Positions 2,408-9,744 of a DNA stretch of 45,520 nucleotides are shown here, one piece after another. This stretch comes from Melioribacteraceae bacterium. GTDB lineage: Bacteria; Bacteroidota; Ignavibacteria; Ignavibacteriales; Melioribacteraceae. The notes under the pieces are model-generated. The model did not search any database. It was not told where the DNA came from and was given only the letters and a program-made list of their open reading frames with translations. The translations under genes were made by a program, and so were the position numbers. Position 1 is the first letter of the stretch. Each line of letters begins with the position of its first letter. The stretch lies in the NCBI GenBank assembly GCA_022181065.1, contig BQMY01000126.1, positions 1 to 45,520 on the forward strand. The letters run 5' to 3'.

Positions 2408-4528
2408 CTATTTTATCAGAGTTATTTTCCTGGTTATTCGTTGCGTTTCTGTAATTAATGATACAAAATAAACACCTGTAGAATAATCCGCCATATTAAT
2501 CGTTATGGAATGTCTGCCCGGTTTAAATATTTTTTTTATAATTGTAAAAAGTCGTTCTCCGGTCACATTAAAAACCGCCATTTCCACTTCACTCTCTTTC
2601 GGCAAAGTAAACTCCATCTTTGTTGACGGGTTGAACGGATTAGGGTAGTTTGGGGAGAGCCCGCAGGTTAGTTCAGTAATATCCTCTACAGCAGTAGTAC
2701 TGCTATATTCAATTTGATTCCATCCTTCTGCAGGACTTACAGTTGCGTGCGGAATTATTCCATTAGTTACCGCATGGAATCGATACTTGAACAGTTTGTC
2801 GGGTCCACCGATATGGAGGAAATGAAGTTCAATTGTTCCATTGTAAAAGGCAGATGTTGTACCGATGGAATCAACGTCAAAATAGATTCTCTCAACATTG
2901 GTAGTTACACCGTTTTTATCATAATAGTACTCGAGATAAAAGTCTTTTATAAAATATTGATATTCATACCCATACCTGATCAGGTCGTGCTGAACTTCAA
3001 CACTAAAATCAACATCGGTTGTATATACAATCTCCGGGATTGAAAATAAAATTACCGGGTCATCGATAGTATCATAAATTAGTGTATCATTTTCGGGCGT
3101 GAGAATTCTGGACTGCAGTAAAGATTTTTTTTCTGTTTTCATAAAGTATCTGGAATATTCGGTTTCCAATAGACCATAATTTTCCAGATAAACGTTTCGT
3201 CTCCGTAAACTGTTTTGCATCGTCGCCTGACGATACTCCTTTATTGAAAGTTCGAAACCCGAATAAGTGAATGTGCTGTCATACAGAGCCTGATAATAAT
3301 ATCTCGGTACGTATCGGTCTGTTACCGGCTGCAAATAATTATCAATATAATTAAATGAAACATTTTCATCTATACCGGCAAGCTGGGTGTAAGTATAAAT
3401 TCGATTTTCACTCTCGTCAAAATGTTCAAATAATGTGTCCGCGCCGATCCAGGAATTATAATAATCTTTACCATAAAGATTGACTTTGTTGTCAATAACA
3501 AATTTTCTCAAGTTAAATGTCGTATCCTGTATAGATTCGTTAATCGTTACTTCCCCTAAAAAATATTCGTTTCCTAAAGCCAGCGGATAATAAGTGTTTT
3601 TAAACTCCGGGAAATATTCCTCTTTTTTAACATATATTTTATCTTCGGTTGGGTAGATAATTCCATCGTTATAAAAGAATATTTCAACAAACCTGCGTAC
3701 TGTAAAAGATCCGATCTGAATTTCTCTAAAGGGTGAAAATTCGAGTTTAAAGAGACCATAAGTCATTTCGCTGTTATCAAAATTATGGTAAACCATCAGA
3801 TACAGTTTATCATTCTCACCATGCATGACGTGAAGATTTCCACCACTTGTATCGCAGGAAACCCAGCTTTCAGTCATATCTGATGAATAGTATAAATGAC
3901 CATTGGCGGTAGTAACAAATACCTCGGAATTTACAGTGATATTTTCAATCGAGAAAGGTGACGTTAATTCTTTCCATTGCAACGAAAAATAATTTAATTC
4001 CAATATCTTTTCCGAAGATCTGCAGTAAATAATACCTTCAGATGTAATCTGGATATTATTGGCACCTGGTGGAAGATCGCAATAATATTCCCAGGTTTCA
4101 CCCAAATCGGTCGAGCGGAAAAATTTACCCTGTGAACCATTCGCATGCAACAAACCTTCCGGAGTATCCATAAACTTTACGGAGCGTATATTATAATTGA
4201 AATCCACCGGATGAAATGTATCTCCAAAATCATCACTGTAGTAAATTAATGTTGTATCCCACGCAACAAGTTTGGAAAGAAATACACGACCATCAACACA
4301 GCTTAATCGGGTATTATTGATCAAATCCGGGTTTGTGATATTTTCCCAGTTTATCCCGCCATCGAATGTTCTGTATATTTGATAATCTCTCGTATAGATC
4401 ATCAGGGAATCTAATGATAATGAGGTGATCGAATATATTTTTTCAGGATACGCTCTTTCCGCCCAGTTATAGTACTCCTGAGCGATACAGCTTGAAAAAA
4501 CGACTAAAAATAGTAGAAATGTTCGCAT
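2408..4528 (-). CDS. Exported Asp-box (BNR) protein with type IX sorting domain, paralogue of its neighbour
   Basis: A 706-residue paralogue of the protein at 269-2371. The signal peptide covers about residues 1-17 (LLFLVVFSSCIAQ), and the mature start EYYNWA resembles KYFNWA in the neighbour. Asp-box motifs are visible at 54-61 (TFDGGINW) and 139-146 (STDLGETW), with a degenerate one near 97-105. The C-terminal sorting tail contains NYPNPFNPSTKMEF, VFNVTGERLF and STGVYFVS. The two tails share a 35-base identical DNA block (450-484 and 2589-2623), which indicates recent duplication or gene conversion. A promoter-like TTGATA-N16-TATATT lies just upstream. The function is unknown; it is probably a surface protein. 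Confidence 0.88.
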   Translation of the reverse strand: MRTFLLFLVVFSSCIAQEYYNWAERAYPEKIYSITSLSLDSLMIYTRDYQIYRTFDGGINWENITNPDLINNTRLSCVDGRVFLSKLVAWDTTLIYYSDDFGDTFHPVDFNYNIRSVKFMDTPEGLLHANGSQGKFFRSTDLGETWEYYCDLPPGANNIQITSEGIIYCRSSEKILELNYFSLQWKELTSPFSIENITVNSEVFVTTANGHLYYSSDMTESWVSCDTSGGNLHVMHGENDKLYLMVYHNFDNSEMTYGLFKLEFSPFREIQIGSFTVRRFVEIFFYNDGIIYPTEDKIYVKKEEYFPEFKNTYYPLALGNEYFLGEVTINESIQDTTFNLRKFVIDNKVNLYGKDYYNSWIGADTLFEHFDESENRIYTYTQLAGIDENVSFNYIDNYLQPVTDRYVPRYYYQALYDSTFTYSGFELSIKEYRQATMQNSLRRRNVYLENYGLLETEYSRYFMKTEKKSLLQSRILTPENDTLIYDTIDDPVILFSIPEIVYTTDVDFSVEVQHDLIRYGYEYQYFIKDFYLEYYYDKNGVTTNVERIYFDVDSIGTTSAFYNGTIELHFLHIGGPDKLFKYRFHAVTNGIIPHATVSPAEGWNQIEYSSTTAVEDITELTCGLSPNYPNPFNPSTKMEFTLPKESEVEMAVFNVTGERLFTIIKKIFKPGRHSITINMADYSTGVYFVSLITETQRITRKITLIK

Positions 4529-7000: not shown

Positions 7001-7414
7001 ATGACTTCACACGATGTCAGATGGATTCAACGTTTCAGCAACTTCAAGAAAGCGCTTTTGCGCCTTAAAGAAGCCGTTGAAATTGCCAATTCGAGAGAAT
7101 TATCCCGTCTTGAAAAGGAAGGACTTGTTAAAACTTTTGAATACACCCAGGAACTTGCATGGCTCGTAATGAAAGACTATCTCTTGTATCAGGGAATCAA
7201 CAACATTACCGGTTCACGGGACGCGATTCGTGAAGCGTTTGCAAATGAGTTGATTTCAGATGGCAATAATTGGATCGATACAATCAGAAGCAGAAATTTG
7301 ACATCACACACCTATAATGAAGAGGTAGCCGAAGAGATTCTCACAAAAACTATAGATATTTATTACCCTCTCTTTCTTCAGTTCGAATCCAAAATGGAAT
7401 CCCTTCAGGGATAG
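7001..7414 (+). CDS. HepT/HI0074-like HEPN nucleotidyltransferase-substrate-binding protein (putative toxin)
   Basis: A 137-residue all-helical protein of the HI0074 (NTase substrate-binding) family. The segment SRNLTSHTYNEE contains Arg98-X4-His103-X-Tyr105, exactly the RX4HXY signature of HepT-type HEPN RNase toxins. In the described HepT/MntA systems the tyrosine of that motif is AMPylated by the partner. The gene FEYTQELAWLVMKDYL helix and length fit the family. It is followed after 8 bases by a minimal nucleotidyltransferase gene, the standard pairing. Toxicity is inferred from motif and context; some HI0074 homologues have no demonstrated toxin activity. It sits at the end of the hisS run, next to repeats, which suggests an acquired module. 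Confidence 0.9.
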   Translation: MTSHDVRWIQRFSNFKKALLRLKEAVEIANSRELSRLEKEGLVKTFEYTQELAWLVMKDYLLYQGINNITGSRDAIREAFANELISDGNNWIDTIRSRNLTSHTYNEEVAEEILTKTIDIYYPLFLQFESKMESLQG

Positions 7415-7422
7415 TTTTCCTT

Positions 7423-7722
7423 ATGAGTATTGGTTTACCTGATAATGAGATAGCTGCAATTAAAGAGTGTTTGTCGAAAATTCCGCGGATTGATCAAGCT
7501 ATTGTTTTTGGGTCACGCGCGATTGGAAAATATAAGTCTTCTTCGGATATAGATATTGTCCTGAAGGGTAAGGACCTCACTGAAAAAGATATAGCCCAAC
7601 TTGAAACTTCAATTGATGATTTACTCCTGCCTTACAAATTTGATTTTGTATTATTCAGCACCATAAGTAATGATGACCTTCTGGAACACATAAGCAGGAT
7701 CGGCAAACAAATCTATCCGTAA
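7423..7722 (+). CDS. MntA/HI0073-like minimal nucleotidyltransferase (putative antitoxin)
   Basis: A 99-residue minimal nucleotidyltransferase of the DNA polymerase-beta superfamily. Gly30-Ser31, ten residues, then Asp42-Ile-Asp44 give the GSX10DXD motif of MntA; a third acidic residue, Asp74 in YKFDFVLF, completes the metal triad. In type VII toxin-antitoxin systems this enzyme AMPylates the HEPN partner and silences it. Here the HEPN gene comes first and the transferase second, 8 bases apart. Spacing and matched signatures on both partners make a functional pair likely. No transmembrane segment is present. The ribosome site before ATG (AGTTTTCCTT) is poor, so translation may depend on coupling to the upstream gene. 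Confidence 0.9.
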   Translation: MSIGLPDNEIAAIKECLSKIPRIDQAIVFGSRAIGKYKSSSDIDIVLKGKDLTEKDIAQLETSIDDLLLPYKFDFVLFSTISNDDLLEHISRIGKQIYP

Positions 7723-7962
7723 AAAATCCAACCACCTGAATTTTATTTTTACCAATCCAAAAAAGTATCAGCACTTTAATCAGGAAACCATTGTTGCTTA
7801 AACCAATGAGCAACAGGACTCCATAATATTCCCCTCCTTTTTATAAAGTTTACGCACCTTGGGGTGGGAGGGGTCAGGCGTGGGTTCTGTTGTAAACGTT
7901 CTAACAATAAGTGCGAGACAGGTTATTCTCACTTCCTCCAATTACGAAAAATTAATGGATGT
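7723..7962 (+). other. Non-coding strip with degenerate repeats after the HepT/MntA pair
   Basis: No credible gene. CCCCTCC (7831-7837) and GGAGGGG (7867-7873) form a widely spaced inverted repeat in G-rich sequence that looks like a worn intergenic repeat. GTTGCT (7793-7798) and AGCAAC (7809-7814) can form a 6-bp hairpin that might end the operon but lacks a T-run. Confidence 0.4.
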
Positions 7963-7987
7963 GTCATTCCCGCGAAGGCGGGTATCC
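7963..7987. repeat. Left inverted-repeat end, dRS3-like palindrome
   Basis: ATTCCCGC (7966-7973), a 4-base loop GAAG and GCGGGTAT (7978-7985) make a hairpin with one mismatch. The whole follows GTC and precedes CC, as in the common VIPAKAGIQ-type dispersed repeats. Confidence 0.7.
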
Positions 7988-7995
7988 AGAATCAT

Positions 7996-8280
7996 TCAAA
8001 GCAATAAATTTAAGGATATATCATCCCAGGCAGGGTTAAACTCCTCTATTATTCGTAACTTCCACTCTCTTTTCCATTTTTTTAATTGCTTCTCCCGTGA
8101 GATGGCATCCAAAGGACTATTACTTCTTTCGTAATAAACCGGCAAATCAGTTCCATATTTTTTTGAAAATCCTTCCACCAGTCCTTCTTTGTGTTCCCAA
8201 ACACGCCGAGCAAGATTGTTAGTTATCCCGATATAGAGTGTTCCATTGTTTATAATTTGGTTTTACAAAATAAAAAACTG
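7996..8280 (-). pseudogene. GIY-YIG endonuclease-family pseudogene with in-frame stop
   Basis: Reading the minus strand from 8280 gives QFFIL, then TAA (8265-8263), then NQIINNGTLYIGITNNL and ARRVWEHKEGLVEGF, ending with a stop at 7998-7996. This matches the single-domain GIY-YIG proteins (about 85-95 residues): FFIL takes the place of VYIL, LYIG is the YIG half, and the basic RR, EH and REKQLKKWKREWKL segments are kept. The stop falls where a Thr is normally found, so a single nonsense change separates it from an intact frame. No ATG precedes it; a GTG at 8295-8293 is in frame. A shorter protein from the internal GTG at 8178 would lack the catalytic motif. The gene fills almost the entire space between the inverted repeats. 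Confidence 0.75.
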
Positions 8281-8315
8281 GATTCCTTCCGCCACCAGCG
8301 GATGCGCAGGAATGA
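8280..8315. repeat. Right inverted-repeat end with nested palindrome
   Basis: ATTCCT (8282-8287) pairs with AGGAAT (8308-8313), and inside it TCCGC (8288-8292) pairs with GCGGA (8298-8302). The outermost bases mirror the left end at 7963-7974. Translated on the minus strand it reads VIPAHPLVAEGIQ, a variant of the common VIPAKAGIQ repeat product. Confidence 0.65.
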
Positions 8316-8401
8316 CTTAATTCATTGATTATAAACTATTAATATATATGTTCTTGTAAATCCCTCTAGCCAACTTGTGGCCGACAATTCAGGATAGAGA
8401 C

Positions 8402-8430
8402 AAAAAAAGGGAGGATCACTGACCCTCCCC
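8402..8430 (-). terminator. Terminator of purA
   Basis: GGGAGG (8409-8414) and CCTCCC (8424-8429) form a GC-rich stem; on the minus strand it is followed by seven T residues (complement of 8402-8408). It lies 31 bases beyond the purA stop. Confidence 0.85.
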
Positions 8431-8460
8431 TGCATAAAATTTGGAAATGTGTGTTTAGAT

Positions 8461-9744
<1,284 letters not shown>

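Follow-up and report, generated by a model that had tools for sequence, protein, structure and literature searches.

Among the dispersed repeats described in bacteria, the CGTC-type REPs are the closest to the palindromes of the present study. They are defined by a tag (CGTC, TGTC or CCTC), a stem starting with AT, a loop of 4-5 nt and a CCA tail (Di Nocera 2013, PMC3733652). These REPs, which include dRS3 of Neisseria and RPE-6 of Rickettsia, are known from five phyla, and no dedicated transposase has been reported for them (PMC3733652). The palindromes described here have the same tag, AT stem, loop and CCA tail, but they frame a nuclease gene and some of their stems differ from the four published families (PMC3733652). 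In REPtrons, which combine REPs with a RAYT (TnpA-REP) gene, a small gene is likewise flanked by a dispersed repeat with a tag beside the hairpin; their enzyme, however, is of the HUH type and their tag is GTAG, whereas our unit has an unrelated GIY-YIG enzyme and a GTCAT tag (PMC8266576). Free-standing GIY-YIG homing endonucleases also have a nuclease gene beside a presumed target and spread via repair at that target. The unit differs from them in having no separate DNA-binding domain, in its palindromic ends and in a presumed target that is dispersed as a repeat and not a single allele. With IS elements and MITEs it shares inverted ends around one gene and the occurrence of gene-less copies, but it has no known transposase fold and no demonstrated target-site duplication. 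The nearest solved structures belong to UPF0213 and bacterial Slx1-like proteins. According to a 2006 survey, the bacterial Slx1 family is strongly conserved and vertically inherited, whereas the clade of our gene is patchy, multi-copy and framed by repeats (PMC1564403). Among the published papers listed by a literature search, none links GIY-YIG proteins with palindromic repeats or with tandem duplication of tRNA genes.

In the present study, the window was a stretch of 45,520 nucleotides from a Melioribacteraceae bacterium (contig BQMY01000126.1). It contains, at 7963-8316 (354 bp, no strand assigned), a decayed single-domain GIY-YIG gene between two inverted palindromes. We consider it likely that a very small selfish element has left a decayed copy here; its ends would be two inverted CGTC-type REP palindromes, and its nuclease would act on the palindrome. 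The left palindrome (7963-7989, plus strand) reads GTC-ATTCCCGC-GAAG-GCGGGTAT-CCAG; it has an 8-bp stem with one mismatch, the loop GAAG and a CCA tail, which agrees with the 8-9-bp stem of CGTC REPs. The right palindrome (8278-8316, minus strand) has the same tag and tail, but its stem and loop are longer than the CGTC-REP shape and imperfect. Both have GTC-AT at the outer end, with TGTC on the left, so that the GTCAT tags face away from the gene and the CCA tails towards it. The two ends are identical over the octamer GTCATTCC (7963-7970 on the plus and 8309-8316 on the minus strand). By itself the octamer is unremarkable in the window (3 copies against 1.49 expected), whereas this genome has 130 copies of the whole palindrome with at most 3 mismatches and none of its reversed pattern; hence the whole palindrome is not due to chance. 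As DNA hairpins, the left palindrome (calculated on a 31-mer whose first base differs) gave -6.4 kcal/mol with a z score of -2.8, and the right one -8.5 kcal/mol with a z score of -2.5. An Rfam scan of 7700-8500 gave nothing above the gathering score.

The gene occupies 7996-8280 on the minus strand and matches PF01541 with 46.2 bits. Its frame comes out of the right-hand palindrome and ends with a TGA stop (7998-7996) 6 bp from the left one. Over 8280-8002 it is 76% identical to residues 2-94 of the query protein of its clade (clade A). Decay is confined to the 5' part: the start region and the first GIY-YIG motif are lost, and an in-frame TAA (8263-8265, minus strand) interrupts the N-terminal part, which is the one internal stop, whereas the C-terminal part is intact and reads through. 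Hence, the initial annotation was right about a GIY-YIG gene framed by inverted palindromes, with a frame that starts inside one repeat and stops just before the other, and the palindromes proved to be of the published CGTC-REP type. Its left limit of the unit also held; its right limit (8315, 353 bp) fell one base short, and its description of a decayed frame applies to the start of the gene but not to the C-terminal part. Adjoining the unit, at 7001-7722, are two small genes (137 and 99 aa), which by eye resemble a HepT/MNT toxin-antitoxin pair.

This genome has 15 GIY-YIG matches, 13 of which were treated as single-domain genes. For six of the 13, the window copy included, the match to one query protein is much stronger than for the others; these six were taken as clade A. 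The clade-A protein has the Tyr, Tyr-Gly, Arg and Glu of the GIY-YIG superfamily and matches PF01541 with 62.5 bits. In an alignment of 43 clade-A proteins Y6, Y17, G19 and R27 never vary, and at least 90% have E64; these positions are the established catalytic residues of GIY-YIG enzymes. The predicted structure has a mean pLDDT of 94.9, and the nearest structures to it are the UPF0213 protein 1zg2 (E 7e-4) and 1ywl, followed by Slx1, entries of which are titled as nucleases of branched DNA. Searches of family libraries gave GIY-YIG and T5orf172 families and weak homing-endonuclease matches (PHROG, NCBIfam), the score for TIGR01453 being 28 bits against a cut-off of 56.

For the surroundings of the gene, 80 clade-A loci from named genomes were picked by protein similarity alone; they are the 80 of 335 that most resemble the query, so that the sample favours close homologues. 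Within 250 bp of the gene, 66 of these best 80 of 335 loci had a strict GTCAT-tagged hairpin upstream and 63 had one downstream; 55 had one on both sides and 74 on either side. The corresponding counts (upstream, downstream, both, either) were 47, 51, 4 and 94 of 4611 same-contig control windows, which overlap one another and are not independent. The general motif was found on either side of 78 and on both sides of 54 of the same best 80 of 335 (177 and 11 of the 4611 controls), and with the two motifs pooled 79 of these 80 had at least one hairpin. Such loci come from many phyla (Bacteroidota 37/37, Pseudomonadota 11/12, Ignavibacteriota 4/4, Chloroflexota 2/2, Planctomycetota 2/2 and others); one hairpin-bearing contig is labelled as a Halobacteria archaeon and may be mis-binned. 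A second, independent sample, in which 30 clade-A genes were drawn from the phylum and this genome supplied one, gave a strict hairpin at 15 of 30 and on both sides at 9 of 30, and a general hairpin at 26 of 30 and on both sides at 21 of 30. Lineage-specific forms such as GTCATTCTGAACGAAGTGAAGAATC escape the strict motif; as a single strand this stem form folds no better than shuffled sequences (-0.8 kcal/mol, z +0.76). In a plasmid collection, where 15 loci were chosen from 32 records, the strict hairpin was found at 10 and the general one at 11, and four loci (L280, L285, L286 and L288) had neither; other inverted repeats are visible by eye at L285, L286 and L288. On a quick tree of 166 proteins built from few columns, the no-hairpin label is clustered, with 9 changes against a shuffled mean of 35.2. 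A 6.3-kb stretch of Neisseria gonorrhoeae (NZ_CP119140.1, L281) has 16 strict CGTC-type hairpins and, among them, a clade-A frame of 94 aa that is not annotated.

Among the 55 two-sided loci the nearest hairpins follow the order plus, gene, minus, with the tags outward, in 46, whereas 9 break the rule. In 51 hairpin pairs the median length from end to end is 370 bp. Left and right stems agree at all six variable bases in 27 of 51 pairs, compared with a mean of 12.7 and a maximum of 21 in 5000 shuffles. In the same 51 pairs the base before GTC is commonly T or C, two T's are common just outside the tag (0.71 and 0.81), and beyond them there is no preference. It is thus well supported that the clade-A gene and its two palindromes form one unit of about 350-370 bp. 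Taken together, the data suggest that this widespread clade, usually found between two copies of a palindromic repeat, is with these repeats one small mobile unit.

If repeat-rich intergenic DNA simply duplicated itself, any small dispensable gene could end up between repeats. Such neutral growth would account for the tandem REP arrays of this genome that hold no recognisable conserved gene, and for the direct duplications around GIY-YIG genes of other clades: a direct repeat between the 400-bp flanks (score at least 25) was found at 9 of the 13 GIY-YIG genes of this genome and at 19 of 29 in relatives. We regard this explanation as highly improbable, as the same duplications were few at PIN genes (3/30) and S23 genes (2/30; p about 1e-5 and 2e-6 for the GIY-YIG genes of relatives), neither family had a tagged hairpin, and random same-contig windows were two-sided in only the 4 cases given above. 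Moreover, 22 of the 55 two-sided loci have no strict hairpin other than these two in the stretch analysed (median 16 kb). The REP-bearing tandem units of this genome (L028-L047) are about 220-430 bp long, for example at C79:44282-45396, C112:4311-5023 and C142:6995-7889. They were considered as carriers of other small genes, and this was rejected: by eye, no recognisable conserved ORF was seen in the 20 regions besides GIY-YIG copies.

The tagged hairpin is specific to clade A. In relatives it was absent from the other GIY-YIG clades (0/28) as well as from PIN, S23 (PF05635) and RAYT-type Y1 transposase genes (0/30 each); the zeros for PIN, S23 and Y1 are partly due to scarcity of the repeat, since most genomes of the relatives have 0-2 copies of the counted form. 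The fairer controls are the same-contig windows and 26 Y1 genes from clade-A genomes, of which one had a hairpin, with an implausible loop. Among the seven genes outside clade A in this repeat-rich genome, a strict hairpin lies on one side in two and on both sides in none, and two more have a chance-like match to the general motif. Two further candidates were rejected: inverted repeats as a feature of GIY-YIG genes at large, which in relatives were present at 1 of 29 at a score of at least 20, and S23 genes as a parallel case, although short inverted repeats flank 8 of 30. Accordingly, the enrichment of palindromes at GIY-YIG genes that the initial annotation had proposed to look for is large in the clade of the window gene and does not extend to the other clades in relatives. 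The counter-case it had named, the gene without repeats in relatives, was found at 1 of the 80 named loci under either motif and at the 4 of 15 plasmid-collection loci. Its interpretation is therefore partly supported, as a rule valid for one GIY-YIG clade, and the mobilisation of the repeats that it had suggested is something that we still infer.

At the level of genomes, clade A was detected (E 1e-15 or less) in 82 of 198 genomes of the phylum, with up to 8 matches per genome. One stem form was present in at least 4 copies in 28 genomes, 25 of which have clade A, compared with 57 of the 170 others (Fisher p 2e-8); with at least 10 copies it was present in 22 genomes, 20 of them with clade A (Fisher p 5e-7). 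In these tables genomes are counted without regard to kinship, and many rows come from one family. Three repeat-rich genomes (G220, G084 and G129) are without clade A, and in 57 genomes with clade A the counted stem form occurs fewer than 4 times. RAYT/Y1 or other transposases might also move the CGTC REPs, in which case the GIY-YIG gene would be a passenger between two REPs that had landed close together. This explanation draws on the Y1 transposases present in 74 of the 80 clade-A genomes tested (of 82) and in 53 of 58 relatives, and on the gene-less tandem arrays described above. We think it unlikely, as the gene between the REPs is GIY-YIG and not HUH (Y1), and Y1 genes themselves are not framed by hairpins, either in relatives or in the genomes that carry clade A. 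Furthermore, fixed orientation, close spacing and matched stems are not expected of random landings, and one genome (G223) has clade A and 11 palindromes but no Y1 match.

A host function was also weighed, in which the protein would serve the host as a resident nuclease of repair and the palindromes would act as regulatory hairpins for translation control before the start and termination after the stop. The spacing is in keeping with it, as the median distance is 15 bp from the tail of the first hairpin to the start codon and 7 bp from the stop codon to the second hairpin in the 51 pairs. The gene is under purifying selection, with a mean dN/dS near 0.13 in genus g92 and 0.07-0.15 in rhizobial copies (pairs not independent), and the bacterial Slx1 family has been described as conserved and inherited vertically (PMC1564403). 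Nevertheless we judge this role very improbable, because the clade is patchy in the phylum and reaches several matches in one genome, its copies stand at unrelated loci and relatives lack the copy at the same site. In addition, hairpins with a regulatory role would not call for conserved GTCAT tags that point outward, or for hundreds of copies standing alone.

The preferred reading as a selfish element is consistent with several signs of mobility. In rhizobial copies lying in different contexts, the common sequence extends from one hairpin edge to the other: in five pairs the homologous stretch starts one or two bases ahead of the tag, and in several it stops close to the edge of the far hairpin. 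Shinella and S. meliloti, for example, match over 2951-3330 and 2951-3325, and the Shinella hairpins are at 2952-2977 and 3304-3329. In Azospirillum lipoferum (L278) the unit lies between sufB and sufC with a hairpin pair on each side, while among the matches listed eleven other Azospirillum records show sufB and sufC as two pieces and lack the unit, and the four Azospirillum sufB-sufC sites that were examined contain no gene and no hairpin. Different clade-A genes were seen between sufB and sufC in A. lipoferum and in Shinella sp. PSBB067 (L291); these copies in two genera are apparently independent insertions in the same place. Sinorhizobium C101 and S. meliloti Ak57 each have a copy where the other lacks one; Ak57 is without the C101 copy, and K101, a near relative of C101, is without the Ak57 copy. 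These gene-less Sinorhizobium sites contain a single palindrome tagged at both ends, which is clean in K101 and imperfect in Ak57. Such a lone double-tagged palindrome is the expected leftover of a deletion between the end palindromes, and it could also be a target; it fits copying in the manner of a homing endonuclease but does not by itself show it. In genus g92, units of about 480-554 bp that are 93-96% identical are present at four distinct loci. These units (L308-L318, L321) lie inside a second repeat, which is bounded by TTGTAGATGT...ACATCTACAA and of which gene-less copies occur elsewhere in the genus. As a clean unit-free site g92 was rejected, as the orthologous site in G081 is a TTGTAGATGT...ACATCTACAA repeat with another insert. 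No base-exact unit-free site was found among the Azospirillum, Sinorhizobium and g92 comparisons, because the intergenic DNA of Azospirillum has diverged and the g92 unit is nested in the second repeat.

We read the unit as a REPtron-like element of about 350-370 bp that consists of one single-domain GIY-YIG nuclease gene of about 95-105 aa, closely framed by its end palindromes, with a nuclease of Slx1/UPF0213-like fold and a putative action on the palindrome. In the simplest account, the nuclease would most likely nick or cut the palindrome with the GTCAT tag in its extruded or single-stranded state, so that the end palindrome of the element itself would be recognised as a hairpin and broken. 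Host recombination with another copy of the palindrome could then copy the gene to new palindromes, duplicate it in tandem, or delete it and leave a solo palindrome. The numerous solo and paired CGTC REPs would thus be gene-less derivatives or targets, and the element would behave as a REPtron with an unrelated enzyme or as a homing endonuclease aimed at a dispersed hairpin. The unit itself is shown by the comparisons above; that the nuclease cleaves the palindrome, and how the unit moves, we infer. The clade-A protein is therefore a candidate enzyme, and the palindrome a candidate substrate, for the CGTC REPs such as dRS3 and RPE-6, a class reported without a dedicated transposase (PMC3733652).

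More tentatively, these units could represent a class of minimal mobile elements that is new and occurs across bacteria, with a single GIY-YIG domain serving as transposase on hairpin ends. Clade A would then be the parent of the CGTC REP superfamily, and sister clades would act likewise on tRNA genes and other hairpin-forming DNA and give target-specific tandem units; this is a possibility to which we give somewhat less than even weight. If the reading of the clade-A unit as a selfish element is right, many genes annotated only as 'GIY-YIG nuclease family protein' would shift from presumed housekeeping genes to selfish elements, and the tandem arrays of GIY-YIG genes would be explained in part.

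The GIY-YIG genes of the other clades are located in other direct duplications, often near tRNA genes. In relatives (L128-L156), a tRNA gene was observed within 300 bp of 13 of 29 and within 700 bp of 16 of 29 genes outside clade A, compared with 0/30 and 1/30 for PIN genes, and in this genome L010 and L005/L006 are also near tRNA genes. Partial tRNA copies were seen 3' of some of these genes. The recurrent tRNA types (Pro-CGG, Lys-TTT, Ser and Arg-CCG) suggest GIY-YIG clades that are specific for their targets. A second GIY-YIG clade of this genome (L001, L002), with a GANYTK motif, lies among dispersed repeats that contain CTCGAAGGGCC. In addition, many genes in the 58 relatives, one-contig genomes included, stand in tandem GIY-YIG arrays among the matches listed, for example five copies with a 450-bp period at G046:C1:120132-122135 and five with a 315-bp period at G048:C1:2945594-2947066. 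A further array was seen in a one-contig genome at G035:C1:1733881-1734727, and all these arrays have 3-5 copies with periods of 315-450 bp.
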